37,128 nt of DNA from Bacteroidota bacterium (GTDB taxonomy: Bacteria; Bacteroidota; Bacteroidia; Flavobacteriales; Flavobacteriaceae): contig JAJRQR010000132.1 in assembly GCA_024280145.1 (NCBI GenBank), positions 1-37,128 on the forward strand, written 5' to 3'. This document shows positions 1,005-19,129 of the stretch, piece after piece. A program made the translations under genes and the position numbers. A model generated the notes under the pieces. It was not told where the DNA came from and did not search any database. It saw only the letters and a list, made by a program, of their open reading frames with translations. The number at the start of each line of letters is the position of its first letter. Positions within the stretch are counted from its first letter, which is position 1.

Positions 1005-1250
1005 ATGAATATTAAAAAAAACATAGCGATAAGTGATTCTGGGTTCCTTTTTAATCCTTCTACTGGAGATTCCTACACTTTGAATCCCGTTGGTCAAGAA
1101 ATCTTAAAATTGCTAAAAGATGGTAATAATGACGAAGGTGTTATAGAGTACATCCTAAAGAATTATATGACCGACAAAGATGCTGTTGAAAAGGATTTGT
1201 ACGATTTTAAAAATATGCTCAAAAATTTTAAATTAATTGAAGATGAGTAA
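1005..1250 (+). CDS. PqqD-family protein (RRE-like)
   Basis: This 81-residue protein has the PqqD-family layout: short beta strands in which NPSTGDSYTLNPVGQEILKL replaces the usual leader-strand/helix segment, then helices ending in a D-F-x-x-x-L-x-x-x-x-L-I motif. PqqD domains bind peptides (the RiPP recognition element) and normally deliver a precursor to a modifying enzyme, often a radical SAM protein. No radical SAM gene is present; the next gene is an ATP-grasp ligase, whose ATG at 1243 lies inside this gene's last codons (overlap 1243-1250), so the two are probably translated together. A TTG at 978 is in frame but lies within the -7 box, so the ATG at 1005 is chosen. No clear precursor peptide ORF was found nearby. 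Confidence 0.75.
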   Translation: MNIKKNIAISDSGFLFNPSTGDSYTLNPVGQEILKLLKDGNNDEGVIEYILKNYMTDKDAVEKDLYDFKNMLKNFKLIEDE

Positions 1251-2292
1251 GCCCATCTATACAATTGCAGTTACAGGATTAAACGCCATTGACAGTCCTG
1301 GTCCTGGATTAGCAGTAATAAGATCCTTACGTGATGCCGAAAGTTTTGATGTCCGTATTATTGGGCTTTCCTATGAAACTATGGAGCCTGGAATATATAT
1401 GCATGATTTGGTTGATAAAACCTATCAAATCCCCTACCCTTCATCAGGGCAAGGTGTTTTAATGGAGCGTTTTCAGTTTATCAATTCTGTTGAAAATTTA
1501 GATTTTATGTTTCCAAATTTTGATGCTGAATTATTCAACTTCATTAAAATTCAAAATCAATTTGAAAAAGAATTAGGTATAAAAATGGTGCTTCCAACAC
1601 TCGATCAATTTGAAGCAAGACATAAAGTAAACCTTTATGATTACGGTATAAAACATGATATAAAAGTTCCGATTGCTAAAATGATTTTTAGTACGAATGA
1701 AATTCTAAAAATCACTGAAGAATTTGGATTTCCAATGGTTATTAAAGGGAAGTTTTATGATGCAAAAATTGCTTATTCGGTAGACCAAGCAGCACAACAT
1801 TTTAATAAGATTAGTGCTCAATGGGGATTACCAGTAATTATTCAAGAATTTGTTCACGGCTCTGAAGTGAATGTTTGCGGAATTGGTGATGGAGAAGGTA
1901 ATTTATTAGGTGCTGTTCCTATGCGAAAGCTTTATATCACCGATAAAGGAAAAGCTTGGGCAGGAGTTACATTAGATGATGATAAACTGATAAAAATCAC
2001 TAAAAACTTGGTAAAAGAAACCAATTGGCAAGGCCCTTTTGAATTGGAGTTTATGAAAACCACTAATGACGAATATTATCTTATTGAAATAAACCCTCGT
2101 TTCCCAGCTTGGTGTTATTTAACGGTTGGTGCTGGTCAAAATCAAGTAGAATCCTTAGTAAATCTTGGAATGAATATTCCAGTAGAACCCTTCACAGATT
2201 ATGAAATTGGAAAAATGTTTATTCGTTATTCCAACGATATGATTGTAGATATGGAAGAGTTTGAAAAAATTTCAACTTTAGGGGAATTATAA
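1243..2292 (+). CDS. ATP-grasp ligase (PylC/CarB-like type)
   Basis: This 349-residue protein has an N-terminal Rossmann-like region (TIAVTGLNAIDSPGPGLAVIRSLR at residues 7-30) typical of the PylC or carbamoyl-phosphate-synthase-like branch rather than the RimK branch. The ATP-grasp fold follows: nucleotide-binding lysine in VIKGK (166-170), the hinge QEFVHGSEVN (201-210) and metal ligands ELEFM (267-271) and EINPR (282-286). Such enzymes activate a carboxylate with ATP and join it to an amine or thiol. The substrate is unknown; the overlapping PqqD-like gene and following PLP-enzyme gene suggest an amino acid or a peptide-bound group. The ATG at 1243 is preferred to the TTG at 1237. A 52-base gap follows before the next gene, with no terminator. 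Confidence 0.8.
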   Translation: MSKPIYTIAVTGLNAIDSPGPGLAVIRSLRDAESFDVRIIGLSYETMEPGIYMHDLVDKTYQIPYPSSGQGVLMERFQFINSVENLDFMFPNFDAELFNFIKIQNQFEKELGIKMVLPTLDQFEARHKVNLYDYGIKHDIKVPIAKMIFSTNEILKITEEFGFPMVIKGKFYDAKIAYSVDQAAQHFNKISAQWGLPVIIQEFVHGSEVNVCGIGDGEGNLLGAVPMRKLYITDKGKAWAGVTLDDDKLIKITKNLVKETNWQGPFELEFMKTTNDEYYLIEINPRFPAWCYLTVGAGQNQVESLVNLGMNIPVEPFTDYEIGKMFIRYSNDMIVDMEEFEKISTLGEL

Positions 2293-2344
2293 AATTATTA
2301 ATATACCATCGGTTGAGACATAATCGATTTCAAAATAAATTATT

Positions 2345-3703
2345 ATGGACAAAAAACAATATGAAAGACCCATCATAAAATCATTAAACAATGGGGTGAT
2401 GAATAAATTTGGAACTCGAAACGAATATGCTGCATTAACGCATATTGAAGGTGTTCCAGTGAAAAGTTTATTACAAGAATATGGTTCTCCTTTATTTGTT
2501 ATTTCAGAAAGAAAAATAAGAGAAAACTACCGCAACGCAAAACGTATTTTTGAAACTAGATATCCTAAAGTGCAATTTGCTTGGTCGTATAAAACCAACT
2601 ATTTAAATGCAGTTTGTAATACATTTCATCAAGAAGGATCTTGGGCTGAAGTGGTTTCTAGATTTGAATATGAAAAAGCCATCAAAAACGGAGTTCCGGG
2701 AGATAAAATTCTTTTTAATGGTCCTGACAAAACCGATAGCGACCTTCGTTTATCCATTAAAAATAACTCTCCTATTCATATAGATCATTTAGATGAATTA
2801 TACCGCCTAACTGAGATTGCAACTGGTATGGATAAAAAACCAAGAGTAGCCATAAGAGTAAATATGGATACGGGTATTTATCCAATGTGGGATCGTTTTG
2901 GTTTTAATTATGAAAACGGACAAGCTTGGGACGCTATTAATAAAATTATGGCTTCAGGTAAACTGAACTTGGTTGGATTACACTGCCATATTGGAACTTT
3001 TATGTTAACACCAAGCGCTTACGGAGTTGCTGCTAGCAAGCTTTCAGAATTAGCTTTAAGCATTAAACATCAATATAATAAAGATATTACCTATTTAGAT
3101 TTAGGAGGTGGATTTGCTTCAAAAAATACTTTAAAAGGATCCTTATTACCAGGTTCAGATTCTGTTCCAGAAATTTATGAGTATGCTGAGGCAATCACAA
3201 CGGCTATTCTAAATGCAGGATTCCAACCAGATGATTTACCTTATTTATATTTAGAAACAGGAAGAGCATTGGTAGATGACGCTGGTTTCTTATTAGGAAG
3301 TGTAATTTCCAATAAAAGATTATCAGACGGGAGACGTGCAACTATTATGGATTTTGGAGTAAATATTATGTTTACTTCTTTTTGGTACGATCATAAAATA
3401 TCTCCAGCTCAAGAATTTGGACAACATACCGAGGACACTATACTTTATGGACCTTTATGTATGAATATTGATGTGGTTAGAGAAAACATCACCTTACCTC
3501 CTTTAAAACCAGGAGATCAAGTGGTAGTCCACCATATGGGGGCTTATAATATTTCACAATCGATGCAATTTATATCTTTACGTCCAGCAATAGTGATGAT
3601 TGATAATGATAAAAAAGTTCATCTAATTAAAGCTGCAGAAACTTTAGAAACGCTGGAAAAAGGGGAAGTTCTACCTGAATATTTAAAAGAATTTAATATC
3701 TAA
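2345..3703 (+). CDS. Fold-type III PLP-dependent decarboxylase-like enzyme
   Basis: A full-length (452 residues) member of the diaminopimelate/ornithine/arginine decarboxylase family. Visible landmarks are the PLP lysine in SYKTNY (K83), the His of GLHCHIGT (residues 211-218), the phosphate-binding loop DLGGGF (252-257), ETGR (304-307), and YGPLCMNID (368-376) whose Cys372 is in the position of the active-site cysteine from the partner subunit. It is not lysA itself: it has a ~35-residue N-terminal extension and a divergent substrate region, and it sits in a specialised operon. It probably decarboxylates, or possibly racemises, an amino acid or an amino-acid conjugate made by the ATP-grasp enzyme. 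The stop codon is two bases before the next start. Confidence 0.8.
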   Translation: MDKKQYERPIIKSLNNGVMNKFGTRNEYAALTHIEGVPVKSLLQEYGSPLFVISERKIRENYRNAKRIFETRYPKVQFAWSYKTNYLNAVCNTFHQEGSWAEVVSRFEYEKAIKNGVPGDKILFNGPDKTDSDLRLSIKNNSPIHIDHLDELYRLTEIATGMDKKPRVAIRVNMDTGIYPMWDRFGFNYENGQAWDAINKIMASGKLNLVGLHCHIGTFMLTPSAYGVAASKLSELALSIKHQYNKDITYLDLGGGFASKNTLKGSLLPGSDSVPEIYEYAEAITTAILNAGFQPDDLPYLYLETGRALVDDAGFLLGSVISNKRLSDGRRATIMDFGVNIMFTSFWYDHKISPAQEFGQHTEDTILYGPLCMNIDVVRENITLPPLKPGDQVVVHHMGAYNISQSMQFISLRPAIVMIDNDKKVHLIKAAETLETLEKGEVLPEYLKEFNI

Positions 3704-3705
3704 TT

Positions 3706-5427
3706 TTGAACACTAACAATTCTAATACACTACTGAAGGTTTATGGGAATGGCTTATTGAATAGCTATTCTCAAATTTTCTTTTCTAATAATAAGACTTT
3801 TGCTGTCTTGTTATTAATCATTAGTTTTTTTGATCTTGGTGCTGGATTAAGTGGTGTGTTAAGTGTTATTATTTCTCAAATTACCGCAAAACTATTTAAT
3901 TTCAATGAAGAATTAATTAAAGACGGTACCTATACATACAATACTTTAATGGTAGGTATTGCCTTAGGAATGTTTTACGATTTTAATTTTTCCTTTTTTG
4001 TAATTTTAGTCATTACTTCAATTTTAACTTTATTTATTACTATTTGGTTTATTACAGTTTTAGCAAAAAAAGGATTGCCCTTTTTAAGTCTTCCGTTTTT
4101 ATTTGGAATTTGGATTATCATTCTTGGAGCGCCTAATTTTTCAGCTCTTCAATTAAACCCAAAAGAAATATTATCGCTTGCTAAATGGTTTCCTGAATTG
4201 TTTTCTTCTGTTACAAATAGTATTGGCTCATTACCTTTTGCAGATGTAATTCATTTATACTTTAGATCCTTAGGAGCTATATTTTTTCAGTATAATGATC
4301 TAGCAGGACTCATTATAGCAATAGGAATTTTAATTTATTCTAGAATTGCTTTTGGACTATCCATCGTAGGTTTTAGCATTGGTTTTGCATTTTACCATTT
4401 TTTCGGTGGAGACTTCTCTCAATTGATTTATTCCTACATTGGTTTTAATTTTATTTTAACAGCGATTGCCTTAGGTGGATTTTTTGTGGTTCCTTCAAAA
4501 AAATCTTATTTAATGCTGTTTTTTATTATTCCAGTCATCGCTTTATCTATCAGCTCATTACATACTTTGTTTTCTTATATAGGTCTTCCATTATATTCTT
4601 TGCCATTTAATATTATTACAATTATTTTCTTGGCAACTATGGCAACAAGAAGTAAGGATTCTGGAATAACTTTAGTAACTCTTCAGCAGTTTTCTCCCGA
4701 AAAAAATCATTACAAGCATTTAAATTCTGTAAATAGATTTAAAAACAATACTTATTATCACCTACACCTTCCTGTGATGGGCGAATGGCATATTTCACAA
4801 GGTCATAACGGAGTAATAACCCACAAAGAAGATTGGCAATACGCTTGGGATTTTGATGTGTTGGATGAAGATAAAAAATCCTATCAATCTCCTGGCAATG
4901 ATTTAAAAGATTATTTTTGCTATGATTTACCTGTTGTTGCTTCTTCTGAAGGATATATTGTTGAAATATTCGATGGAATTGAAGACAACAAAATAAATGA
5001 GGTTAATTTAAAAAAAAACTGGGGAAACACCATTATCATCAAACACGGCGAGCACTTTTACACTAAACTATCACATATTAAAAAAGGTTCTTTCAAAGTT
5101 AAAAAAGGTGATTATGTAACTAAAGGACAAGTAATCGCGTCTTGTGGAAGTTCAGGAAGATCACCAGAACCACACCTTCATTTCCAGTTACAAACTACAC
5201 CTTATATAGATTCTAAAACTATTGAATTTCCTTTAGCATATTATCTTCGAAAAGAAAATAATAAATATCATTTTCATTGTTTTGATATTCCGAAAGAAAA
5301 CGAAATAGTTTCAAATGTAAAAACAACAAAACTATTAACAGAAGCCTTTGATTTTGTTCCCGGAAAGACATTTTATTTCAACTATAAAGGGAAAAAAGTA
5401 AAATGGGAAGTATTACCAACGCAATAA
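3706..5427 (+). CDS. Urea-transporter-like membrane protein fused to an M23 peptidase domain
   Basis: Residues 1-310 are hydrophobic with about ten membrane segments and look like the urea transporter (UT) family: YSQIFFSNN near the start, YTYNTLMVGIALG (76-88), and the paired LPF motifs SLPFLFGIW (128-136) and SLPFN (298-302) expected from the internal duplication. After a ~35-residue linker comes an M23 (lysostaphin-type) metallopeptidase domain: H373 and the AWDFD segment (380-384), IIIKHG, SHI with H457, and HLHFQ (490-494), so the zinc and catalytic residues appear present. UT proteins carry urea or similar small amides; M23 domains usually cut peptide cross-bridges outside the membrane. 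The start is a TTG at 3706; the next in-frame ATG would delete two membrane segments. The last 25 bases overlap the next gene. Confidence 0.75.
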   Translation: MNTNNSNTLLKVYGNGLLNSYSQIFFSNNKTFAVLLLIISFFDLGAGLSGVLSVIISQITAKLFNFNEELIKDGTYTYNTLMVGIALGMFYDFNFSFFVILVITSILTLFITIWFITVLAKKGLPFLSLPFLFGIWIIILGAPNFSALQLNPKEILSLAKWFPELFSSVTNSIGSLPFADVIHLYFRSLGAIFFQYNDLAGLIIAIGILIYSRIAFGLSIVGFSIGFAFYHFFGGDFSQLIYSYIGFNFILTAIALGGFFVVPSKKSYLMLFFIIPVIALSISSLHTLFSYIGLPLYSLPFNIITIIFLATMATRSKDSGITLVTLQQFSPEKNHYKHLNSVNRFKNNTYYHLHLPVMGEWHISQGHNGVITHKEDWQYAWDFDVLDEDKKSYQSPGNDLKDYFCYDLPVVASSEGYIVEIFDGIEDNKINEVNLKKNWGNTIIIKHGEHFYTKLSHIKKGSFKVKKGDYVTKGQVIASCGSSGRSPEPHLHFQLQTTPYIDSKTIEFPLAYYLRKENNKYHFHCFDIPKENEIVSNVKTTKLLTEAFDFVPGKTFYFNYKGKKVKWEVLPTQ

Positions 5428-5873
5428 ATCAAACTTACATTTATTGTCAAGAAAGTAAGAGTACTGCCTATTTTGTAAATAATGGAACGGTTTTCTATTT
5501 CACAGATTATTTTGGCGAAGATGATTCCCTATTACACCATTTCTATTATGGTGCACAAAAGGTTTTATTGGGATATTATAAAGACATTCAATTAAAAGAT
5601 GAATTAATGATCGATGGGTTTTTTAATAAATTCATCACTAATTTACACGATTTTACTGCACCATTTTTTCATTATTGCAAGGTAAAATATCATTTCTCTT
5701 TTAATACATGTGATAACGAGCATAATCCTACAGAAATATCTTTCCAAACCAGTTGTATTGCAACTATCGGAAAAAAAGAATATAAAAAAGTTACTTATTC
5801 ATTTCTTTTAAAAGAAGGAAAAATTGCCTCATTTACTATCAATAACAACCAAACTGCAGTATGCGAAAATTAA
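5403..5873 (+). CDS. Unrecognised 156-residue soluble protein of the PqqD/ATP-grasp operon
   Basis: I do not recognise this protein. It has no signal peptide or membrane segment. Predicted character is helix followed by alternating strands: a conserved-looking FYYGAQKVLLGYYKDIQ segment (residues 47-63), several aromatic and His residues in the middle (FFHYCKVKYHF), and a C-terminal strand pair (KKVTYSFLLKEGKIASFTI). The layout would suit a small ligand-binding or cyclase-like alpha+beta barrel, but that is a guess. Its ATG lies 25 bases inside the upstream UT-M23 gene and its end overlaps the next gene by 13 bases, so it is translationally coupled to both. A decayed relative may lie at the left edge of the window. 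Confidence 0.65.
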   Translation: MGSITNAINQTYIYCQESKSTAYFVNNGTVFYFTDYFGEDDSLLHHFYYGAQKVLLGYYKDIQLKDELMIDGFFNKFITNLHDFTAPFFHYCKVKYHFSFNTCDNEHNPTEISFQTSCIATIGKKEYKKVTYSFLLKEGKIASFTINNNQTAVCEN

Positions 5874-7150
5874 TAATGATACTTATTTTTTCGATAGGGA
5901 TTCAATCGTATTCACAAAAGGCTTCTATAACAGAAGTGGATGCACAAACCTATAAGTTATTTACTGCTGAACAATGGAAAGATTTGATTGTTTATGGTGA
6001 AGAAAACGCACAAAATTCCTATTACTACAATGTTAGAATGGGAGTTGCCTATTTCAATGAAAGAGAATATTATTCTGCAGAAAAACACTTAAAAAAAGCA
6101 ATCGAACAAGGAAATACTGATTTTGCTAAAGAATATTTATTTTGGGCTTATTATAATCTTGGAGAATCCTTTTTAGCAGAGCAAGCGTATGACCAACTAT
6201 CAACAGAAGCAAAAAAGAGTGTTGACCTTAAAAAAACTGCTATTGAATCTGTTTATATTGAAGTGGGAATAAAAAGCCCGAATACAAATGAAGTGGAAAA
6301 CACCTATTACGGGAATATAATTTTAAAGCACCGCTTGGGAAAAAATATTCGAATATTACATTCTGTAAACACTTTTATTCAAGATCAGTCTGCTCAAGAT
6401 TTTAATAGTTTTCAATATCATATTTCGGGCGCTTATTTTATTAATACTTCATCCATAAGTATAGGCGCAATATTTAATGAAAGTGAATTTAACTCTTTAA
6501 CAAATGAAATTATTATAGATGATTTTGGGAATAATTTAATAGAAGAATTTATAAGTAACAGTAAAGGCAATACTTATAGTTTTTACGCAAATTTCAATAA
6601 AAGGTTTAATAGATTTAGATTAAATGCCAACTTTAATTATATAGCACAAAATTCTACTATAAAATCCATTGATAAAGTAACATTAGAATCTGATGGGGCT
6701 ATTATTTCTGAAGAATTTAGTAAAACAAAAAATAAGGAAACGGTCTATATCCCCTCTGTTGGAGTGATGTACACTCCTAAATTCACGAAAGACCGCATTT
6801 CTATTGGAGCAGATTTCTTTTTTCCAATTACTGAAATAGAAACTAACATTGTTTTTAAACCGTATTTAAACATTTTTATATTAGATCAATTTTGGCTTAA
6901 CACCAGTTATCTTCAAGTAGAAGACTTTTTATTTGCTGATTATTCAAGTGAAATACTTTATAATACACCAGATCTTTCAGTAAAAAGATTTGTATCAACA
7001 ATTAACTATGCCTTTTCTAAAAAATTAATTACCAAATTAACTTACACTTTTGAAAATTATAAATTTAATACTACAGCCCTTGTGTACGATATTAACTCTA
7101 TATTTTGGGAGTACAATATAAATTTTAACTTATGTCTCGTACTTTTATAA
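5861..7150 (+). CDS. Exported TPR protein with probable outer-membrane beta-barrel
   Basis: An N-terminal signal peptide (MRKLIMILIFSIGIQSYS, cleavage likely before QK) is followed by about 100 residues of TPR-like helices (YYYNVRMGVAYFNEREYYSA, AEKHLKKAIEQG). From about residue 145 the sequence changes to alternating hydrophobic/polar strands with many aromatic residues and short turns (HRLGKNIRILHSVNTF, FQYHISGAYF, FMITKLTYTF-like repeats), ending in NINFNLCLVLL, as in a Bacteroidetes outer-membrane barrel of 12-16 strands. It is probably the outer-membrane part of this operon, for release or uptake of the pathway's substrate or product. Start and end both overlap neighbouring genes (13 and 19 bases). 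Function is inferred from context only. Confidence 0.65.
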   Translation: MRKLIMILIFSIGIQSYSQKASITEVDAQTYKLFTAEQWKDLIVYGEENAQNSYYYNVRMGVAYFNEREYYSAEKHLKKAIEQGNTDFAKEYLFWAYYNLGESFLAEQAYDQLSTEAKKSVDLKKTAIESVYIEVGIKSPNTNEVENTYYGNIILKHRLGKNIRILHSVNTFIQDQSAQDFNSFQYHISGAYFINTSSISIGAIFNESEFNSLTNEIIIDDFGNNLIEEFISNSKGNTYSFYANFNKRFNRFRLNANFNYIAQNSTIKSIDKVTLESDGAIISEEFSKTKNKETVYIPSVGVMYTPKFTKDRISIGADFFFPITEIETNIVFKPYLNIFILDQFWLNTSYLQVEDFLFADYSSEILYNTPDLSVKRFVSTINYAFSKKLITKLTYTFENYKFNTTALVYDINSIFWEYNINFNLCLVLL

Positions 7151-7734
7151 CTATCGCTCTGTTATTTTCTTTCCCTATTCTGTTTGGGCAAAATTTAGTT
7201 TCTGAAGCATTTTCTCAAAGCTATCACTCCGAATATAATAAAGAATATTCAAATGCTATTTCCGAAATAGACCAAATTTATTCAACAGATTCTTACGAAA
7301 TTAATCTACGTTTGGGCTGGTTATATTATTTGAATGGAGATTATGTAAAGTCTAATAATTATTATAAAAATGCCATTAAAATTCAACCTAAATCAATAGA
7401 AGCTAAACTAGGTCTTGCCTATCCTGTAAGTGCATTAGAGAGTTGGGATGATTTAATTAATATCTATAATGATATTTTGAAAATAGACCCATTTAATTAT
7501 ACGGTAAACTTAAGAATGGCAACTATTTACTATTATCGAAAAGATTTTCAAAAAGCTGAAACTTATGGTGAAAAAATAAGTAGTCTCTATCCGTTTGATT
7601 ATAGTTATAATTTAATTCTCGGAAAAATAAATTTGAGTTTAGGAAATATTATTCACGCAAAAGAGCATTTAAATATTGCTTTATTATACGATCCAACTGC
7701 CACTGAAGTATTGGATTTATTAAAAGCTTTGTAG
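7132..7734 (+). CDS. Exported TPR-repeat protein
   Basis: This 200-residue protein has a signal peptide (MSRTFITIALLFSFPILFG) and then about five TPR-like helix pairs, the clearest being LRLGWLYYLNGDYVKSNNYY, IEAKLGLAYPV, LRMATIYYYRKDFQKAETYG and LILGKINLSLGNIIHAKEHL. It resembles the N-terminal part of the preceding barrel protein and is likely a periplasmic scaffold that works with it. It is the last gene of the operon. Its TAG stop (7732-7734) is directly followed by the stop codon of the convergent MFS gene, so there is no spacer and no room for an independent terminator. Confidence 0.7.
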   Translation: MSRTFITIALLFSFPILFGQNLVSEAFSQSYHSEYNKEYSNAISEIDQIYSTDSYEINLRLGWLYYLNGDYVKSNNYYKNAIKIQPKSIEAKLGLAYPVSALESWDDLINIYNDILKIDPFNYTVNLRMATIYYYRKDFQKAETYGEKISSLYPFDYSYNLILGKINLSLGNIIHAKEHLNIALLYDPTATEVLDLLKAL

Positions 7735-8940
7735 TTAATTATTTTGCATTCTAAACTTGATAATTACAGATGAAAATATAGTCAGAATTCCAATAGTTAA
7801 AATAGCATATTCCAAACCAAAAACATCAGCAATTAGCCCAGATAAAAATGCTCCAATAGCATAACCCAAATCTCGCCATAATCTGAAGACTCCTATACTT
7901 TCAGGACGTTGAGAAGGCGTGGTGTTTTTAGCAATGACCACCAAAAATGTAGGATAAACCAAAGCAGTTCCTAATCCGAGTACCACACATAACGCAATAT
8001 ATTCTATGGGAGAACCTGCCCATATTAAAGTTGAAATAGCAATTCCTTGTAGTAACATTCCGTAGAATAAAATCTTTTTATTATTGTATAAATCGGCAAA
8101 TCTTCCTGTGAATAATTGTCCCAATCCCCATACCAATGGATAAGTAGCTGTAATAATTCCAATACTATCTTTTCCAAAGTTTTCACTTAATAAGAGTAAA
8201 GGTAAAAGTCCCCAAATCATTCCATCGTTTAGGTTATTAATCAATCCAGCTTGGGTGGTGGCACTTAGGTTGGGGTTTTTAAAAGTAGTATTCCAAAAGA
8301 CATTCTTTACTTTTTCATTATTGCTTTCATTTGTTTCAATCGCTACGTGATGTCGAGTATCTTTCACCAAAAATATAGAAAATAGCAATCCTAAAACCGA
8401 AAGTCCAATTCCGAGGTAAAAAGGATAGGGTCGTAATCCATATTTTTCAGCAATAACTGCCGTTAAAAATGTAATTAAGCCCACTGCAAAATAACCAGAA
8501 AATTCATTAAGCCCCATGGCGAAACCTCTGTCCTTCTCTCCTACCAAATCTATTTTCATTACCACCGTGCTCGACCAGGTCAAACCTTGATTGATACCCA
8601 ATAAGATATTTGCAAAAATCACGACATTCCAACTTTCTGCATAAATCAAAAGTAAAGGAATGGGCAAGGCAAACAACCAACCAATGACCAATAGATTTTT
8701 TCTGCCCCATTTATTGGCGAGTTTTCCTGTAAAGTAATTGGTAATTGCTTTGGTGATTCCAAAGGCAATGATAAATGATAAAATTGCGGTATTGCTATCA
8801 ATTAGAAATTCTTTTTCGGCAATTTCGGGTAAAATAGAACGCTCCAACCCTACTATACCACCAACAAAAGCATTGACCAATACCAATATCCAAAACTGGG
8901 AAGCGTTTTCTTTTAGACCATGTTTAATGGTTTCTTTCAT
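7735..8940 (-). CDS. Major facilitator superfamily exporter
   Basis: A 401-residue membrane protein with about twelve hydrophobic segments and a central hydrophilic loop (around residues 195-215). The loop after the second segment has the MFS signature TGKLANKWGRKNLL (G-x-x-x-D-R-x-G-R-R type), repeated in the second half as TGRFADLYNNKKIL. An R-G-F-A-M-G-L-N-E stretch lies in the first half. The substrate is not clear; the position as last gene of a metal-efflux island, 41 bases after the adaptor gene, suggests metal or metalloid export, but drug export is also possible. Confidence 0.8.
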   Translation of the reverse strand: MKETIKHGLKENASQFWILVLVNAFVGGIVGLERSILPEIAEKEFLIDSNTAILSFIIAFGITKAITNYFTGKLANKWGRKNLLVIGWLFALPIPLLLIYAESWNVVIFANILLGINQGLTWSSTVVMKIDLVGEKDRGFAMGLNEFSGYFAVGLITFLTAVIAEKYGLRPYPFYLGIGLSVLGLLFSIFLVKDTRHHVAIETNESNNEKVKNVFWNTTFKNPNLSATTQAGLINNLNDGMIWGLLPLLLLSENFGKDSIGIITATYPLVWGLGQLFTGRFADLYNNKKILFYGMLLQGIAISTLIWAGSPIEYIALCVVLGLGTALVYPTFLVVIAKNTTPSQRPESIGVFRLWRDLGYAIGAFLSGLIADVFGLEYAILTIGILTIFSSVIIKFRMQNN

Positions 8941-8981
8941 ACTAAAAAATAAGTCTAAAGATAATCATTCCCGCTTTGATA

Positions 8982-10124
8982 TTATTCGCTTATCAAACTA
9001 AATGCTCCTTTGGTTAAAAACTCATCTTCTTCAGAAAAATCAGCAGTATTTTTAATTTCTGTAAATCCGCTATAAGAATCACCAATTTCAACTTTCACCT
9101 GATCAAAATGATAATTATCATCATCACTTTTAATCATTTTTAAAGCATAATACTTCCCGTCCAAATCAACAATAGCATCGGTTGGCAACGATTTTTGATT
9201 TACTTTATCAGTAATTATTTTTGCTTCAATAAACATTCCTACTAAAAAATGCTGTTGTGATTCTTCATTAAGATGGCCATGTACTTTTATGGTTCTATTT
9301 TCATCTATGGAAGTCCCAATAAGATGCACTTCAGCTTTAAAAACTTCATCGGAAGCTTCTGGGATTTTAAAATCTATTTCTTGTCCTTTCTTTAGTTTTA
9401 GAATGTCTTTTTCGAATACAGACAATTCTAAATGTAAATGGTCATTATTAATAATTTCCATAATAGCCATTGCTGGCGAAACAAAAGTCCCGATAGAGAT
9501 ATTCACTTTTGTTATACTTCCAGAAATAGGGGCGTAAATCCTTGCAACCGAAGTGAAGTTTCCGCTTTCAGCATTCTGAGTAGAAATATTCAACATTTGA
9601 AGTTGCTTTTTATACCCTGAATATTTAGCTTTTGTAGTCTTGTAATCACTTTCAGATTTTAAATATTTTTTTTGCGAAGTAATATTCTCCTCAAACAATA
9701 TTTTTTGTCTGTCAAACTCAGATTTTAAATAGGTGAGTTGCTCTTTTACTTCCACATATTCTTGCTGTAGCGTAACAAAGTCAGGATTTTCAAGCGTAAC
9801 CAATACCTGCCCTTTTCGCACCTTATCTCCCACCAACAAAGGGGCTGTTTTAATATAACCTCCCATTGTAGCATTGACAATTGCTTTGTTTTCTGGCGGA
9901 ACATCAATGGTTCCTGTAGCTTGAATCACTTTTGAAAAAGGTCTTCCCGTTAGTGGTTCCATCTTCATATTATTTTGCTTAAACTGCTGTTTTGATAAAA
10001 CAATTCCTGTTTCTTCGGCTACTACAGTTTCTTCTTTTAGCGTTGCATCATTTTTTTCAGAATTTTTACAGCTATACAAACTGAAAATTGAGAAAATGAC
10101 AACTATATATTTATTAAATTTCAT
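8982..10124 (-). CDS. RND efflux periplasmic adaptor (CusB/CzcB family), lipoprotein
   Basis: This 380-residue protein begins with a lipoprotein signal (IFSIFSLYSC, lipid on Cys19) and has the usual membrane-fusion-protein order: half lipoyl domain (GGYIKTAPLLVGDKVRKGQV), alpha-helical hairpin (about residues 115-180), second half lipoyl (ISGSITKVNISIGTFV), and beta-barrel (KKGQEIDFKIPEA). It would link the inner-membrane pump to the outer-membrane channel. Its partner is the broken czcA-czcC fusion ten bases upstream, so it may be orphaned unless it works with the second pump at 20350-23520. The adaptor itself looks intact. Confidence 0.88.
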   Translation of the reverse strand: MKFNKYIVVIFSIFSLYSCKNSEKNDATLKEETVVAEETGIVLSKQQFKQNNMKMEPLTGRPFSKVIQATGTIDVPPENKAIVNATMGGYIKTAPLLVGDKVRKGQVLVTLENPDFVTLQQEYVEVKEQLTYLKSEFDRQKILFEENITSQKKYLKSESDYKTTKAKYSGYKKQLQMLNISTQNAESGNFTSVARIYAPISGSITKVNISIGTFVSPAMAIMEIINNDHLHLELSVFEKDILKLKKGQEIDFKIPEASDEVFKAEVHLIGTSIDENRTIKVHGHLNEESQQHFLVGMFIEAKIITDKVNQKSLPTDAIVDLDGKYYALKMIKSDDDNYHFDQVKVEIGDSYSGFTEIKNTADFSEEDEFLTKGAFSLISE

Positions 10125-10134
10125 AGGAATTGTA

Positions 10135-13100
10135 TTAAAGTGTTAAGTGATTTAGTTTTATAATGGTCTGGTTTAATTGATTTAAATTGCTGAGGTAATC
10201 AATTTTAATTTCAAAAGCATTTTCTATACTTTGAATATATCTAAAAAAGTCAATCTCCCCATTTTTGAAGCTACTACTGGCAGTTTTCACTATTTCATCT
10301 GAAAGTGATGTTCCTTCAATTTCGTAGTATTCCAAGGCTTTTTGATTTTTATTTAGATTTGATAATAGTTCTTGCTGATAGTCCTCAAAACGATATTTAT
10401 ATGCTTTTGAAAGTTCAACAGATTCATCTAAAGCAATTTTTGAAGCTTTAATTTGCGATGACTGACCACTAAATAATAAAGGAATTTTTAATCCAACTTG
10501 AAAACCATATAAATTGGTGGGTCAAGTGGAATTGCTTCCTTGAAAATATTCCAAACTTATATCGGGCAATAATTGTTGTTTTTCGAGATTATTCTTTGCT
10601 TTATACAACGCCTCTTGACTTTGAAAATAAGCAAGTTCAGCACTGGTTTCAATATCTAATTGTTGAAGTAACAACTTGTTAATAGGAATTAATTGTATTT
10701 CAAAATCTTCTTCTGATTGAACGACATTCTTAATCTTATTAAAAGAAATACGTGTTTCTTGTTTGGCTTCTTCTAGCTTAACTTTTATCTTTTTTTGCTT
10801 GGATTGCGCTGTTATTTTTTCCAAATAATTGGTCTCTCCCAATTCAAAACGCCGCTTTGCCGAAGATGCAAAATTTTCATACAAACTATCCAAACTCTTA
10901 TAAATTCGTTCCTTTTCGTTTGCGAATAAATATTGGTAATAATCTGCAATCACCTCTCTTTCCAAATTCTTTTTCTGAATTTCTAAATTGATATTTGCAC
11001 TGTTTAAATTCTCAGCGGAAACCTTTTTCGCTGCAAAATAAACTGTTGGAAATAGAAAAGTTTGTTGAATTCCAAAGATGTTTAAGGGTTCATTATTAAA
11101 GGCTACGTTATTTTCATCGTAACTATAATAGACTTCCGTTTTATCGAAATTTAAGGATGAAGAAATCAAAGCAGAAGCCTTTTCTGTTTGTAAAGTAGAA
11201 GCTTTTAAATTCGCATTATTTTCAAAAGCCAACACTTGTAATTCTTCTAAACCTAATGTTGGAGTTTGGGCGTTTATTCCTAATGAAAACAGAATTAACA
11301 AACCTGTAATGACTCCTCCTTTTTTGTTTTTAAGGTGAAATCTTTTACGTTCTCTTTTACTATCGAAAATGGCATAAAGTATAGGCAAAACCATTAATGT
11401 TAGTAAGGTAGATGTTATCAAACCACCTATAACTACAGTTGCTAAGGGACGTTGCACCTCTGCTCCTGCTCCGTTTGAAATCGCCATAGGCAAGAACCCT
11501 AATGCTGCTGCTAAAGCGGTTAATAAAACAGCTCGTAATCTGCTTTCTGCTCCAAATATTATTAGTTCATCATCAGGCTTCATTCCGTTGTGTTTTAATT
11601 CTTTGAATTCTTCAATTAATACAATACCGTTAAGCACTGCAATACCAAAAAGTGCAATAACTCCTACTCCTGCAGAAATACTAAAAGGTAAATCTCGCAA
11701 CCATAAAAATAGAATTCCTCCTACTGCAGCAAAGGGAATGGCTGAGTAAATAATCAATGCTTCTTTAGCCGATTTGAATGCGAAATACAATAATATAAAT
11801 ATGAGTATCAAGGCAATAGGAACGGCAACAGCTAATCGTGCTTTGGCAGATTGTAAGTTTTCAAACTGACCACCGTAAGTAATTGAATAGCCCACAGGAA
11901 TCGTGATTTCTGCATTAATCACTTTCTTTAAATCATCTACCACCGACTGTAAATCACGATTTCGAACGTTAACTCCTACAACCACTCTTCGTCTGGTATT
12001 ATCTCTTGAAATTTTTGCTGCACCTTTTGTGTAAGTAATAGTTGCCAATTCACTTAAAGGAATTTTTAATCCCGTTGGCGTGTCTACATACAAATTTTGT
12101 AAGTCTGAAATATCTTGACGTTTATCTTTATCCAAACGAAGTACTAAATCGAATTTCTTTTCTCCTTCAAAAATACTTCCTGCGGTATGACCCGAAAAAC
12201 CCATTGCTATCATTTCATTCAAATCGCTGATATTCAAACCATATCTTGCGATTTTACTTCTGTTGAACTTCACATTCATCTGTGGCAATCCAGCGGTTTT
12301 TTCAACGGTAATATCCGCTGCACCTTCAATATTTGAAATTACTCGTTTAATTTCATTCGCTTTTTTATTTAGTAAATCGAGGTTATCTCCATAGATTTTT
12401 ATGGCAATATCAGACCGTACTCCCGAAATTAATTCATTAAAACGCATTTCGATAGGTTGGGTGAATTCCACTTCCATATTCGGAATAATTTCCAAGGCTT
12501 TTTTAAACTTATTTGCCAGTTCATCTTTTGTTTCAGCAGTTGTCCATTCTCCCTTCGGAATCAAAGTAACAATCACGTCACTTTCTTCCATAGACATTGG
12601 ATCTGTAGGTACTTCAGCAGCTCCAATTCTACTTACTACTTGTTTTACTTCTGGAAATTCTTTTAAAATTTGTTCAATTTTGGTCGTAATTTCCACGGTT
12701 TTCTTTAATGAAGTTCCTGTTTTTAAAACCGGCTGAATTACAAAATCACCTTCATCTAATGTCGGAACAAACTCTGCTCCCATTGTTGAAAAAAGATAAA
12801 ATGAGGATAATAAAATCACAACCGAGGCAGATATTACCAAGTTTTTTGATTTTAATGCCCAACGAATAGAAGGTTCGTATAAACTGGTTAAAAAATTCAT
12901 TATTCTAACTGAAATATTCTTATCGGAAAGAACAATAGGCTTTATTACCATTGATGCCATTGCAGGAACATAGGTCAATCCAAAAATCATTGCGCCAATT
13001 AATGCAAAGCTGAATGTCATTGCCATCGGCTTAAACATTTTTCCTTCAACACCACCTAATGTAAGAATAGGAATAAATACAATTAAAATGATAATCTGTC

Positions 13101-14466
13101 CGAAAATAGCAGAGGACATCATTTTTGAAGCGGCCCCAAAAGTAACATCGTCTCTCACAGCTTGTGCTTGGATTTTCGTAAGATTTTTAAAGTCTTCAGA
13201 TTTTGAAGTAATTTTGAAAGCTACAAATTCTACAATAATTACAGCTCCATCTATTATTATCCCGAAGTCAATCGCTCCCAAACTCATTAAATTGGCATCC
13301 ACACCAAAAATATACATCATAGAAAGGGTAAACATCAATGCCAAAGGAATAACCGAAGCCACTACCAATCCTGATCTCCAATCACCTAAAAGTAAAACCA
13401 CGATAAAAATTACGATTAAACTTCCAAGAATTAAATTTTCATAAACGGTAAAGGTTGTTTTGGCAATCAATTCACTTCTATCTAAAAAACCATTGATATA
13501 AACGCCTTCTGGTAAGGATTTTTCAATTGATTTTACCCGTTCTTTTACTGCTTCAATTACCTTCTTGGAATTGCCGTTTTTCAGCATCATTACTTGTCCT
13601 AGTACTTTTTCACCTTCGCCATTAGCAGTAATGGCACCAAATCGCATTGCCGACCCATAACCAACTTTTGCAATATTTTTAATTAGAATTGGAATTCCGT
13701 CTTTAATAATAACCACCGTGTTTTCAATATCTTCTAAAGAGGTCATCAATCCTTCTCCTCTAATAAAATACGACTGATTTGTCTTTTCAATATATCCACC
13801 ACCAGCAACACTATTATTTTTTTATAAGGCAGTGAAAATATCTGAAGCTGTGATATCCATCGCATTCAGCTTGTTGGTATTTATAGCAACTTCATATTGC
13901 TTTAAAAAACCACCCCAAGTATTCACTTCAACCACTCCTTTAATTCCGGAGAGTTGCCGTTTTACAATCCAATCTTGAATGGTTCGTAATTCTGTGGCGG
14001 TGTAGCTTCCTTTATAATCCTCTTTTACATCGAGTATGTATTGGTAAATTTCTCCCAGACCTGTCGTAATAGGTCCCATCTCTGGAGAACCAAATCCTTC
14101 TGGAATTTTTTCTCTTACTGAAGTCAGTTTTTCAGCAATTAATTGTCTTGGTAAATAGGTGCCTATGTTTTCTTCAAAAACAATAGTTACTACCGATAAA
14201 CCAAATTTAGAAATGGACCTAATTTCCATAACTCCAGGAATATTTGCCATTTCTAATTCTACTGGATAGGTTATAAATTGCTCAATATCTTGAGTGGATA
14301 AATTTTGTGAAGTAGTAATCACTTGCACCTGATTATTAGTGACATCAGGTACAGCTCCGATAGGAATTTGAGTTAGAGAATACACTCCATATCCAACAAC
14401 AAACGAGGTGAAAAGTAGAACAATAAACTTGTTCTTAATACTAAAATTAATAATATGTGAAAGCAT
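10135..14466 (-). pseudogene. czcA: CzcA-type RND pump fused to CzcC-type outer-membrane channel, interrupted by two in-frame stops
   Basis: A single reading frame of 1443 codons runs from the ATG at 14466 to the stop at 10135. Codons 1 to about 1030 are a heavy-metal RND pump (PDVTNNQVQV, DFGIIIDGAVIIVEF, EFVPTLDEGD, AVLNGIVLIEEF). A hydrophobic linker (GVITGLLILFSLGINAQ) leads into a TolC/CzcC-like channel domain (LPDISLEYF, YGFQVGLKIPLLF). Two codons are stops: TAA at 13822-13824 (codon 215), where the paralogue at 20350-23520 has Glu in ALEKNNS, and TGA at 10522-10524 (codon 1315) inside the channel domain. There is no frameshift, and translation reads sensibly straight through both. The first stop would remove most of the pump. 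The segments 13822-14466, 10522-13749 and 10135-10335 are therefore not separate genes. The cause may be recent decay or base-call errors. Confidence 0.85.
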
Positions 14467-14566
14467 AAATTTTGCGTTATTCTATTAAAATAATATTCAG
14501 AATAATAAATTAATGATCCTCTGATAAACTTCAGATATAATAAATTATTTGAATTTAATTGGCTTC

Positions 14567-14583
14567 TTCCTAATAATTAGGAA
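14567..14583. promoter_or_regulatory. Palindrome upstream of the czcA-czcC fusion
   Basis: A perfect dyad with arms TTCCTAAT around one central A. It lies just after the stop of the small His-rich gene and about 100 bases before the start of the pump gene. The loop is too small and no T-run follows, so a protein-binding site fits better than a terminator. No second copy was found in the window. Confidence 0.3.
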
Positions 14584-14589
14584 ATAGAA

Positions 14590-14988
14590 TTACGCAAATT
14601 TAGGAGGCTGAAATACTCCTTTATCGTGAATTGAAGAATAGGTGTTTTGGTAATAAAAATTCGTTTCAGAACAATCTGAGTGTTCCAGTTTTTGTTTTTC
14701 AAAAGGATTTTCATCCACTATAAAAACCAATACTGAAGCTAATTGAGAATGCTGCTGAAAGGGTAATTCTTCGTGATCAGATTTTTCTTCTTGGTGCTTT
14801 TTATGATGTTCATCTTTTAAATCACCATAATGTTTAGCGATAAAAACAAAGAAACTATCTCCATATTCTTGTATATGAAATTGAGCGTGTTCAACAAGCT
14901 CATCCAATTGTAAAGCATCGCCATTATTAACATTTACACTTTGTGCAAGAATTAAAAAAGAAAATAATATGGAAAACAGTTTTATCAC
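14590..14988 (-). CDS. Small exported His/acid-rich protein of the metal-efflux island
   Basis: This 132-residue protein has a signal peptide (MIKLFSILFSFLILAQS) and a middle part rich in His, Asp, Glu and Lys (DEHHKKHQEEKSDHEE), suited to loose metal binding in the periplasm. The C-terminus is VFQPPKFA, similar to the ILQPPRV end of the small protein at 23647-23958, which also precedes a czcA gene. The start is GTG at 14988: a TAnnTTTG box ends exactly four bases before it, as for other genes in this window. It lies 123 bases upstream of the broken czcA-czcC gene; that gap has a 17-base perfect palindrome at 14567-14583 (arms TTCCTAAT), which could be an operator. Probably an accessory or sensing protein of the pump. 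Confidence 0.7.
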   Translation of the reverse strand: MIKLFSILFSFLILAQSVNVNNGDALQLDELVEHAQFHIQEYGDSFFVFIAKHYGDLKDEHHKKHQEEKSDHEELPFQQHSQLASVLVFIVDENPFEKQKLEHSDCSETNFYYQNTYSSIHDKGVFQPPKFA

Positions 14989-14992
14989 CTTA

Positions 14993-15000
14993 CAAAACTA
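14993..15000 (-). promoter_or_regulatory. -7 box (TAGTTTTG) of the small His-rich protein gene
   Basis: TAGTTTTG matches TAnnTTTG and is followed by TAAG and then the GTG start at 14988. The transcript would begin at or very near the start codon, so the mRNA would be leaderless. The TGCAC-N5-TTGCAA motif seen at two other promoters of this island is not present here. Confidence 0.5.
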
Positions 15001-15076
15001 TAAAAATATTTCTCTATTAATTACAAATCTAATTATTTATAAAAATAGGTCAATCAATATTCTTTATACTAAGGTA

Positions 15077-17026
15077 TTATTTAAACTCCATTCGCTGTAT
15101 TCTTACTGAATTTAATATAGCCAACAAAGCCACTCCAACGTCTGAAATTACAGCTTCCCACATCGTCGCCATTCCCATTGCTCCGAGAATGAGTACTAAG
15201 ATTTTAACTCCCAAAGCCAAGATTATATTTTGCCAGATAATTTTATTAGTAGCATTTCCAATCTGAATTGCCGTAGCAATTTTTGAAGGCTGATCGGTTT
15301 GTATAATCACATCAGCAGTTTCAATCGCAGCATCACTTCCCAAACCTCCCATTGCCATTCCTACATCCGATAAGGTAATTACGGGCGCATCGTTAATTCC
15401 GTCACCAATAAAAGCTATGGTATTTCCTTGGGCTTTTAATTTTTCAACTTCAGTAATCTTTCCTTCTGGTAAAAGTCCGCCAATGGCAGTATCTATTCCC
15501 AATTCTTTGGCAACCTTATCTACTACTGCTTGTTTATCGCCAGAAAGCATCACGATATTGGTTATTTTAGGAATTTTATGGAGTGCGATAATCGCTGCTT
15601 TCGCATCTTCCTTTATGGTATCTGCAATGGTAATATAACCTGCATATTTTTTATTTATAGCAATAACTACAATGGTTTCTGTGATTTTTTCAATAGCAGC
15701 ATCAAAAGGAATAGCAAACTTTTTTAGTAGCTTTGTGTTTCCTGCTAGCACCTCAAACTCTCCTATTTTTCCTTTCATTCCGTGTCCCGAAATCTCTTCA
15801 ACTTCCGTGCTTTTATTTTCTGAAGGAGTTGAATTTTCTTTGGAATAATTCACTATAGCTTCAGCAATAGGATGAGTTGAATTACTCTCTAAAGCAGCAA
15901 CCAACTGAAGTATTTTATCTTTATCAAAGTCTATTGAAACTACTTCTTGCACTTCAAAAACACCTTTGGTCAGCGTTCCTGTTTTATCCATTACCACCGT
16001 ATCCACCTTGGTCATTATATCGAGATAGTTAGAACCTTTAAAGAGAATTCCGTTGCGAGAACCCGCTCCAATTCCTCCAAAATAACCTAAGGGAATCGAA
16101 ATCACCAAAGCACAAGGACAAGAAATCACCAAGAAAATTAAGGCACGCTGAAACCACATCTGAAACTCATAATCTCCTCCCAAAAAGAAATAAGGAATGA
16201 TTACCAAAGCCACTGCCAACCAAAAAACAATAGGCGTGTAAACTTTTGCCAAACGACTAATTAATTGTTGTGTTTTAGCTTTTCTACCAACGGCTTCTTG
16301 AACTAATTTTAATATTTTAGAAAGCTTAGTATCTTCATATTTACTGGTAACTTTTACTTGAATAAGTGTATTTAAATTCACCATTCCCGCCAAAACAGTG
16401 TCGCCTTTTTTCTTAGAATCTGGAGCAGATTCACCAGTAAGTGCTGCAGTATTTAAAGAAGCATATTCAGAAACTAATTCACCATCCAGCGCTATTTTCT
16501 GTCCTGGTTTTACTTGAAATAACTGTCCGATTTTAAGTTCGCTTGGATGCTTAATCACCAGATTATCATTTTCTAAAACGGTTACTTCTTCCACTTGAAC
16601 TTTAAGCAAAGCTTCAATAGAGCGTTTTGCTTTATTTACGGCAGCTTCTTGAAATAATTCTCCCACCACATAAAACATCATTACGGCTACTCCTTCTTCA
16701 TAAGAACCAATAGCAAAGGCACCCAGAGTGGCAACCGACATTAATACAAATTCATTATAAACATCTCCTTTTACAATGAGGTTTAAGGCTTTTAAAACGA
16801 TAGGCCCACCAACAGCAATGTATATAATCCCGAACCACATAATTGGAATTGGATTTGTAAAAAATGAAACTTCAGAATAATCAAAGGCAATTCCCATCAC
16901 TAAAAAAACAAAGCCAAGTAGGGGAATAATATATTCCTTATTAAAACTTACTTTTTCTTTAGGAGCTGCATCTTGCGTATAATCTATGGCACAAGCACCG
17001 TCTTTGCAATCATCTTCGTTGGACAT
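15077..17026 (-). CDS. zntA: Heavy-metal-translocating P-type ATPase (Zn/Cd/Pb type)
   Basis: A 649-residue P1B-type ATPase that pumps metal ions out of the cytoplasm. Visible: TGES in the actuator domain (197-200), the metal-binding membrane motif SCPCAL (CPC at 303-305), the phosphorylation site DKTGT (347-351), the P1B-specific HPIAEAI, and GDGINDAP. There is no full HMA domain at the N-terminus; instead a short Cys-containing leader (DDCKDGACAID) may bind metal. CPC together with the Fur-family neighbour favours zinc or cadmium over copper. It has its own promoter and probable operator in the 68-base gap after the Fur-family gene. Confidence 0.88.
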   Translation of the reverse strand: MSNEDDCKDGACAIDYTQDAAPKEKVSFNKEYIIPLLGFVFLVMGIAFDYSEVSFFTNPIPIMWFGIIYIAVGGPIVLKALNLIVKGDVYNEFVLMSVATLGAFAIGSYEEGVAVMMFYVVGELFQEAAVNKAKRSIEALLKVQVEEVTVLENDNLVIKHPSELKIGQLFQVKPGQKIALDGELVSEYASLNTAALTGESAPDSKKKGDTVLAGMVNLNTLIQVKVTSKYEDTKLSKILKLVQEAVGRKAKTQQLISRLAKVYTPIVFWLAVALVIIPYFFLGGDYEFQMWFQRALIFLVISCPCALVISIPLGYFGGIGAGSRNGILFKGSNYLDIMTKVDTVVMDKTGTLTKGVFEVQEVVSIDFDKDKILQLVAALESNSTHPIAEAIVNYSKENSTPSENKSTEVEEISGHGMKGKIGEFEVLAGNTKLLKKFAIPFDAAIEKITETIVVIAINKKYAGYITIADTIKEDAKAAIIALHKIPKITNIVMLSGDKQAVVDKVAKELGIDTAIGGLLPEGKITEVEKLKAQGNTIAFIGDGINDAPVITLSDVGMAMGGLGSDAAIETADVIIQTDQPSKIATAIQIGNATNKIIWQNIILALGVKILVLILGAMGMATMWEAVISDVGVALLAILNSVRIQRMEFK

Positions 17027-17058
17027 AATTTGGTTTCAGTTTTAATATTTCAAGCTTT

Positions 17059-17094
17059 CAAATTTAATTAAATAAGTATTGCAACAATAGTGCA
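17059..17094 (-). promoter_or_regulatory. Promoter and candidate metal-regulator operator of the P-type ATPase gene
   Basis: The -7 box TAAATTTG occupies 17059-17066. Twelve bases upstream, at 17079-17094, is TGCACTATTGTTGCAA (- strand), an imperfect dyad containing TGCA-N7-TGCA. The same TGCAC-N5-TTGCAA pattern occurs eleven bases upstream of the -7 box of the small gene at 23958. The site lies between the -33 and -7 positions, where a repressor would block RNA polymerase. The upstream edge touches the stop codon of the Fur-family gene. Confidence 0.55.
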
Positions 17095-17511
17095 TTAACT
17101 GGTACTGCATTTATCACAAATACCCTTTACCACTAAATTAATATTTTCGGCAATAAAGCCTTCTGGTAAATTTATCTGTGGAATCTTATGTTCGGTTAAA
17201 CAAGTCGTTTCTTCGCATTTGGTGCAGTGAAAATGAAGATGCAAATCGGTTTCAATCTCACACTCGCAATTTTCCTCACAAAGTGCGTATTTAGTCACTC
17301 CTGTCCCATCATCAATTTGATGTACTAATCCTTTTTCTACAAAGGTTTTAATTGTTCGGTAAATGGTAGTTCTATCAGCATTATCGAAATAGTTTTCTAA
17401 CTGACTTAAGCTTAAAGCTGTTTTTTTTCGTAAGATAAATTGTAAAACCAACAGTCGCATTGCTGTTGGCTTTACTTTATTATTTTCTAATATTTTTTCT
17501 AAAGTTTTCAA
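17095..17511 (-). CDS. Fur-family metal-responsive regulator (Zur-like)
   Basis: A 138-residue Fur-family protein: winged helix with DNA-recognition segment DRTTIYRTIKTFVEKGLV, then a dimerisation domain with the metal-binding residues HLHFHCTKCEETTCL and a C-terminal CDKC pair, the structural zinc site of the family. A Cys-rich insert (CEENCECE) is unusual and may add a sensing site. It lies 12 bases after the PII-like gene and directly before the ATPase promoter, so a role in controlling this island is likely. The repeated TGCAC-N5-TTGCAA motif is the best candidate binding site. Whether it senses zinc or another ion cannot be read from the sequence. Confidence 0.85.
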   Translation of the reverse strand: MKTLEKILENNKVKPTAMRLLVLQFILRKKTALSLSQLENYFDNADRTTIYRTIKTFVEKGLVHQIDDGTGVTKYALCEENCECEIETDLHLHFHCTKCEETTCLTEHKIPQINLPEGFIAENINLVVKGICDKCSTS

Positions 17512-17523
17512 AATCTTAAATTA

Positions 17524-17850: not shown

Positions 17851-17860
17851 AATAGTAATT

Positions 17861-19090: not shown

Positions 19091-19129
19091 TTTTATTTAT
19101 TTTAAAATTTGAATTTTATAATGATTGAT

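Follow-up and report, generated by a model that had tools for sequence, protein, structure and literature searches.

The window analysed here is a stretch of 37,128 nucleotides from a Bacteroidota bacterium of the Flavobacteriaceae (assembly GCA_024280145.1, contig JAJRQR010000132.1). Between positions 1005 and 7734 it carries six closely packed genes on the forward strand, which encode a PqqD-family protein, an ATP-grasp ligase, a fold-type III pyridoxal phosphate (PLP) decarboxylase, a fusion of a UT (urea transporter) domain with an M23 metallopeptidase domain (UT-M23), a predicted outer-membrane barrel with tetratricopeptide repeats (TPR-barrel) and an exported TPR protein. These genes form, with near certainty, a dedicated and co-inherited system of Bacteroidota. 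The combination of ATP-grasp and PLP chemistry, a decarboxylase pocket apparently suited to a non-acidic conjugate, a UT channel and a barrel is in our view best explained, if still tentatively, by the cytosolic synthesis and trans-envelope export of a decarboxylated, neutral-ended amide.

Gene content and distribution of the operon

The list of open reading frames (ORFs) and the Pfam matches confirmed packed genes on one strand at 1005-7734. The first gene (1005-1250) encodes an 81-aa protein of the PqqD family (PF05402, 37.3 bits; cut-off 23.4), and its stop is overlapped by the ATG, at 1243, of the ATP-grasp gene (1243-2292; PF15632 and PF02655 above cut-off). The FslC-like PLP decarboxylase (2345-3703), of the Pfam Orn/DAP/Arg decarboxylase type, is followed 2 bases past its stop by the TTG start of UT-M23 at 3706. 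The N-terminal part of this gene (3706-5427) includes the UT domain at about 3754-4635 (PF03253, 196.5 bits; cut-off 25) and the M23 domain at about 4738-5280 (PF01551, 61.9 bits; cut-off 28.7). The TPR-barrel is encoded at 5861-7150 and the 200-aa exported TPR protein at 7132-7734 (PF07719, 47.9 bits); in both, a signal peptide was recognised by eye. None of the window's proteins reached the cut-off of a curated equivalog model in NCBIfam.

The original prediction, made from the sequence without database searches, had described seven co-directional genes. Their direction, packing and spacing are as described, and Pfam matched all the families named, from PqqD, ATP-grasp and the PLP decarboxylase type to the UT-M23 fusion and TPR. 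The number changes to six, because the supposed 156-aa gene at 5403-5873 encodes, out of frame, the C-terminal domain of UT-M23. It shares 93% identity with the 722-aa protein encoded in a relative (locus L032, genome G011), and its equivalent is the C-terminus of a single 722-aa UT-M23 in that genome as well as in G015 (L033) and G036 (L034). The frame break lies at 5410-5416, where the window is one base shorter than L032; near 5412 it reads 'gaagtattacc' and L032 reads 'gaagtctttacc'. Two further genes of the window are also split. The imidazolonepropionase gene hutI (35057-36292) is found in two ORFs covering profile positions 4-203 and 213-377, and cusA (10522-14466) in ORFs of 214 aa and 1075 aa, the longer of which runs into a sequence that by eye resembles an outer-membrane factor. 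Because these genes are split as well, a sequence error in the metagenome-assembled genome is the likely cause of the break in UT-M23; a real lesion is possible.

The distribution of the system was followed in 395 evenly drawn Bacteroidota genomes. UT domains are present in 45 of them, and in 34 the UT belongs to UT-M23. In 33 of these the open frame that surrounds the UT spans 535 aa or more, the broken frame of the window measuring 576; in G063 the gene is split in two ORFs. An alignment search for the ATP-grasp at E 1e-60 found 34 genomes, the same 34, and the chance of such identical sets is about 10^-49 under independent placement, a model that ignores shared ancestry. ATP-grasp, PLP and UT-M23 genes lie in that order on one strand in all 33 genomes other than that of the window. 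The idea of a dedicated system had been tied in the original prediction to the genes being found together elsewhere, and this is what the identical sets, with one operon each, reveal.

In a species-level genome collection, the ATP-grasp was located by alignment scan at 581 places at least, the best 80 of which were analysed further. All six families are present at 55 of these 80 loci, some of the other 25 being cut by a contig end, and UT-M23 or part of one at 76, with L161 stopping too early for this to be judged. Three of the 80 (L117, Competibacteraceae; L120, Bifidobacterium; L177, Melainabacteria) bear non-Bacteroidota titles and were assumed to be mis-binned. Neighbourhoods were counted in 115 loci, leaving out L033, close to L032, and L105, which is the same locus as L073 at the other contig end of G180. 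A profile search, with a profile built partly from the same loci, detected PqqD immediately before the ATP-grasp at 112 of the 115; it was missed at L079, L113 (contig edge) and L164 (ATP-grasp ORF not called). Gaps of 30 bases or fewer separate PqqD and ATP-grasp in 94 of 96 cases, UT-M23 and TPR-barrel in 74 of 77, and TPR-barrel and TPR in 72 of 74. Such short gaps suggest translational coupling of the operon genes, including that of inner- with outer-membrane genes. Plasmid records gave 15 matches, all below 60% identity, and the ten listed were at 20-29%.

The PLP, ATP-grasp and PqqD proteins

Judged by its sequence, the PLP enzyme is almost certainly not LysA. It falls short of the NCBIfam cut-offs for both FslC (237 bits; cut-off 500) and lysA (227.6 bits; cut-off 297.9), and its best PDB chain is 7kh2, an N-citrylornithine decarboxylase (1e-60). 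Met373, Ile375 and Gln405 are each found in 110 of 110 operon enzymes and Thr344 in 105 of them. LysA proteins from the sampled genomes have Glu at position 373 and Arg at 344 in eight of eight, eight of 16 loci having yielded an ORF under the filter used. A separate LysA scores above the cut-off in 14 of 18 operon genomes and none does so in G000, G011, G015 and G180, the last being 99% complete. The orthology with lysA that the original prediction had named as fatal to its idea is therefore contradicted by both the separate LysA proteins and the active-site residues.

The window's genome and two operon genomes of the same genus have no other LysA, which was first read as a swap of LysA for the operon enzyme. 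This explanation was rejected because 14 of 16 genomes of the genus in which UT-M23 was not found also have no LysA above the cut-off, and because the active site differs. Of the 19 genomes of this genus, several of them incomplete, 17 have no LysA above the cut-off, and the window's genome has dapA. Lysine may be taken up in this genus while diaminopimelate is still made for the wall.

The related decarboxylase FigC provides a guide to the pocket. According to PMC7857480, FigC carries Met355 in place of an acidic residue beside the catalytic Cys, and its specificity helix has Thr and Tyr where relatives have Asp and diaminopimelate decarboxylase (DAPDC) has Arg. Its H357 and R387 lie deeper in the pocket, near the citryl group by docking, and could be used there. 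The same paper considers members of the FigC clade other than DAPDC or D-ODC as likely to serve specialised metabolites such as siderophores. FigC numbering was mapped onto the operon enzymes by alignment. The operon enzymes share with FslC/FigC and SbnH the architecture of fold-type III PLP decarboxylases, and with FigC the Cys-Met pair of the catalytic loop. They differ from them in scoring below the FslC cut-off, in having Ile375 and Gln405 at the positions of H357 and R387, and in that a synthetase for siderophores independent of nonribosomal peptide synthetases (NIS synthetase) is not in the operon gene set (115 loci, flanks by eye only). With Ile and Gln in place of H357 and R387, a non-acidic conjugate is expected, and from these residues we infer that the substrate would be an alpha-amino acid with a neutral conjugate on its side chain.

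The ATP-grasp protein is nearest to carbamoyl-phosphate-synthase-like ligases. Its K170, E271, E284, N286 and R288, which we take to be functional residues, are invariant in 18 aligned sequences. The formation of an amide by an ATP-grasp enzyme is shared with the E-64 pathway, which is independent of nonribosomal peptide synthetases (PMC12568646); the term PLP-dependent decarboxylase also occurs four times in that text. This pathway differs in being fungal and in that its second ligase is an amide bond synthetase, and the passages available from that source contain no channel or barrel.

The PqqD proteins have an N-terminal hairpin in common and variable C-termini. LysW-like amino-group carriers are small proteins with a conserved C-terminal acidic residue, and such a role was rejected for PqqD as the C-termini are not conserved. 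PqqD domains usually bind peptides. As in the PqqD-type systems for ribosomally synthesised and post-translationally modified peptides (RiPPs), such as PQQ, lasso and HPr-rel-A, a small PqqD-family protein stands beside an ATP-using ligase; unlike in those systems, radical SAM, asparagine-synthetase-like ligase and precursor peptide are not in the operon gene set. The original prediction had pointed to the lack of a radical SAM enzyme and of a visible precursor and had proposed a search for short conserved ORFs beside homologous operons. Across the 115 loci, the operon gene set does not include a radical SAM enzyme (recurrent flanks were viewed by eye, with no radical SAM model scan), and a search of the 1.5 kb on either side revealed no short ORF that is widely conserved. 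That the first three genes make a small amide or a modified peptide, as the original prediction proposed, is plausible.

The UT-M23 fusion and the outer-membrane proteins

UT-M23 was modelled with AlphaFold2 (AF2) for the relative L114, using an alignment of 52 relatives, with a mean confidence score (pLDDT) of 92.6. Residues 1-337 match the urea channel dvUT (3K3F) with a Z of 35.7 and a root-mean-square deviation of 2.6 over 311 aligned residues, and residues 344-524 or so match M23 domains (best Z 15.0), close to those of LytM, Csd and ShyA. The C-terminal domain has no Pfam match above cut-off and no NCBIfam match, either in the window (5403-5873) or in L114 (525-728); from the strand order in the model, one might guess at a LolA-like fold.

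The UT domain of the window scores 137.7 bits against the NCBIfam urea transporter model, whose cut-off is 274.6. The filter positions of dvUT were taken from PMC4357013, and its numbering was placed on the alignment by motif. Of 97 UT-M23 proteins, 72 have Ala and 11 have Leu at the position of Glu187, where all eight plain Bacteroidota UTs have Glu or Gln (eight of ten loci, after exclusion of L045, with an internal stop, and L048 from G063, with the split UT-M23). The Thr130 position is Ser in 90 of the 97, and the Thr294 position is Ser in 62, Val in 16, Thr in 12 and Ala in 7; the plain UTs have Thr at both (8/8). Gln24 is matched by Gln in 85 of 97. UT-M23 thus keeps the fold of dvUT and, largely, its hydrophobic filter positions, and differs from it by the mostly changed Glu187 and central Thr residues and by the fused M23 and C-terminal domains. 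The original prediction had noted that UT proteins move urea-like amides; for UT-M23 such a substrate is doubtful because the Glu187 pore residue is mostly lost.

In the M23 domain, H373, D382, H457, H490 and H492 (L032 numbering) are invariant in 25 UT-M23 proteins, as are their equivalents in 52; they are presumably the zinc ligands and the catalytic His. Both the fold and these ligand-type residues are shared with LytM and other M23 metallopeptidases, from which UT-M23 differs by its H373-x8-D382 spacing, longer than the one we take to be canonical, and by its predicted location. The M23 and C-terminal domains are very probably cytoplasmic, according to charges counted over loops that were set from the model. 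K+R and D+E amount to 9.0 and 2.5 on the side of the termini, and to 2.5 and 6.1 on the opposite side. K+R is higher on the termini side in 96 of 97 UT-M23 proteins, with one tie, and in all eight plain UTs, and by eye no further hydrophobic helix lies between UT and M23. The termini of mammalian UTs are cytoplasmic. By the positive-inside rule, M23 is predicted in the cytoplasm and is thus probably not a wall hydrolase. The original prediction had the last four genes export, trim or sense the product; its span from cytoplasm to outer membrane holds, but trimming by M23 outside the inner membrane is not supported. Per 100 aa, the M23 and C-terminal domains contain 1.16 cysteines (95 proteins), against 0.33 for a set of 27 further M23 proteins of relatives and 0.25 for the TPR proteins that the operon exports. 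The 27 controls were found by blastp and replaced a narrow-motif set of four proteins with 0.91 per 100 aa. This lends weak support to a cytoplasmic M23, since PqqD (0.07), ATP-grasp (0.44) and PLP (0.75), the cytosolic proteins of the operon, are also poor in Cys. L039 and L040 (G015 and G000) encode a second M23 protein, about 305 aa long and 34-36% identical to the operon M23 domain, whose N-terminal part by eye has several hydrophobic stretches.

The AF2 model of the TPR-barrel protein (pLDDT 90.6) comprises seven helices past the signal peptide and then 14 long strands, as assigned by DSSP. Its nearest folds are TodX, CymD, TbuX and FadL (Z 19-22, about 10% identity), CymA (Z 19) and OmpG (Z 14-18.5), so that a 14-strand outer-membrane channel is predicted. 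TPR models are the commonest matches among 47 family members; of NCBIfam models, PrsT and PilW match 10 each, MamA 9 and VexE 6, and the barrel models BBP2_2 and DUF2490 match one each. The YaiO, PgaA and BcsC models matched none of the 47 at E 0.01. The separate TPR protein, whose family is present in 97 of 115 loci, matches PgaA and BcsC weakly, far under the cut-off.

Proposed export of an amide and other explanations

The following route would account for these proteins. In the cytoplasm, a substrate might be presented or positioned by the PqqD-like protein, and a carboxylate and an amine would be joined by the ATP-grasp enzyme. The FslC/SbnH-like PLP enzyme would then decarboxylate this amino acid conjugate at its alpha-carbon, leaving a product with a neutral, amide-like far end. 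This product could cross the inner membrane via the UT-family channel, through a pore unlike that of urea channels, while the M23-like and C-terminal domains at its cytoplasmic face would act in substrate processing, release or gating. Exit may occur via the TPR-bearing barrel, aided by the periplasmic TPR protein. Export appears somewhat more probable than import.

Several points weigh against this route. The order of the steps, the product and the direction are inferred, and the topology of UT-M23 rests on charge bias. UT channels are passive, and export through them requires a gradient. A FadL-like barrel would be equally compatible with import. Packing is looser around the PLP gene, with gaps of 30 bases or fewer in 60 of 113 cases for ATP-grasp/PLP and 77 of 111 for PLP/UT-M23, and in G180 about 700 bases and a short ORF separate PLP from UT-M23. 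At three of the 80 further loci (L109, L122 and L171), PqqD, ATP-grasp and PLP occur with no UT-M23 in the available DNA, which at L171 stops 1.1 kb past PLP; the enzyme module may therefore stand alone. A barrel-like protein of about 280 aa (by eye, with no Pfam match) is present in 17 loci, mostly those that have no TPR-barrel, and it seems therefore that an outer-membrane pore is needed and that its type varies.

Among the alternatives, a RiPP-like system fares best, although it is unlikely. PqqD would bind a precursor encoded elsewhere, ATP-grasp and PLP enzymes would modify it, the cytoplasmic M23 would cut it and the UT would export a small product. Lasso peptides are made by similar logic, with a PqqD-type B1 protein, a protease and an ATP-dependent ligase. 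The best NCBIfam match of PqqD is indeed the lasso PqqD (34.5 bits, far under the cut-off of 70), PqqD adjoins ATP-grasp almost throughout, and an M23 predicted in the cytoplasm with invariant ligand-type residues could cut peptides there. However, the only cluster of short ORFs within 1.5 kb belongs to three related loci (L084, L085 and L091), and a UT-type pore is narrow for peptides.

An uptake-and-use system is quite unlikely. Barrel and UT would admit a small amide-like nutrient, which the cytoplasmic M23 would split and the ATP-grasp and PLP enzymes convert. The resemblance of the barrel to the FadL, TodX and CymA uptake channels fits this scheme, as does the ability of UT channels to conduct in both directions, but an ATP-consuming ligase suits synthesis more than breakdown, and no catabolic gene set was seen by eye among the flanking families listed (the first 35 clusters present in at least 4 of 115 loci).

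That the FslC/SbnH-like decarboxylase makes a metal-binding conjugate, a metallophore or siderophore, under an HMA-type AraC regulator is improbable. Among solved structures, the PLP enzyme is closest to an N-citrylornithine decarboxylase, and the FigC clade, to which the operon enzyme may belong, likely serves such metabolites according to PMC7857480. An AraC-type protein with an HMA-like N-terminus is encoded upstream of the operon on the forward strand (307-891; HTH_18 51.8 bits, cut-off 33.6; HMA 19 bits, below cut-off), 34 of 115 loci have a member of its family no more than seven genes away from the operon, and metal efflux genes adjoin in the window. Against this, FigC H357 and R387 are replaced in the pocket, NIS synthetase and TonB receptor are not in the operon gene set, CxxC is missing from 10 of 14 AraC N-termini, and the only metal-type gene among the recurrent neighbours listed, an RND-like transporter by eye, occurs in 4 of 115 loci. 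The AraC/HMA-like protein is a possible regulator of the operon.

A role in peptidoglycan or envelope maintenance, with a periplasmic M23 hydrolase and the UT merely as its anchor, would agree with the LytM/Csd/ShyA-like fold, the envelope location of the TPR and barrel partners and the weak matches of six of 47 TPR-barrel proteins to VexE of Vi polysaccharide transport, but is very improbable given the cytoplasmic placement of M23 by the positive-inside rule and, less strongly, its Cys content.

Further genes accompany the operon at some loci. Proteins that by eye resemble response regulators occur at 11 of 115 loci and kinase-like ones at 8. An extra protein of about 250-318 aa lies between PLP and UT-M23 at L169, L179, L180 and L181, that of L181 matching IF-2B (PF01008, 71 bits), a fold shared with sugar-phosphate isomerases; at L141 and L146 this place is taken by a 191-aa factor, sigma-70-like by eye. 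In nine loci, L086 and L101 among them, the gene upstream of PqqD, two before the ATP-grasp, encodes a secreted protein of about 280 aa that by eye seems to end in a sorting domain. In the window, the operon adjoins a metal-efflux region (7735-23520) that encodes two RND pumps of the CusA/CzcA type, a P1B-type ATPase and, by eye, a major facilitator superfamily transporter and a Fur-like regulator. An ArsR-like regulator (by eye) lies upstream of the operon in G011 and G015.

A full-text search of the openly licensed literature, which does not extend to subscription journals and their ATP-grasp neighbourhood surveys, for example, gave no paper title on the operon or on a UT-M23 fusion. What appears to be new is the system as a whole and none of its folds. 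The operon might represent a new trans-envelope class of natural-product systems, which we regard as possible but rather doubtful. In such a class, a UT homologue whose pore has been retuned, and whose metallopeptidase domain lies in the cytoplasm, would export via its own barrel an amide or peptide-derived product made by the PqqD, ATP-grasp and decarboxylase proteins. If true, it would include, to our knowledge, the first UT-family channel dedicated to a non-urea substrate and the first M23 working in the cytoplasm. The operon occurs in 34 of the 395 Bacteroidota genomes sampled, and its ATP-grasp at no fewer than 581 places in the species-level collection. That a ligase and a decarboxylase are paired here with a homologue of urea channels and a pore in the outer membrane points to an undescribed metabolite, and makes it testable whether UT channels have non-urea substrates and what role a cytoplasmic M23 may play.

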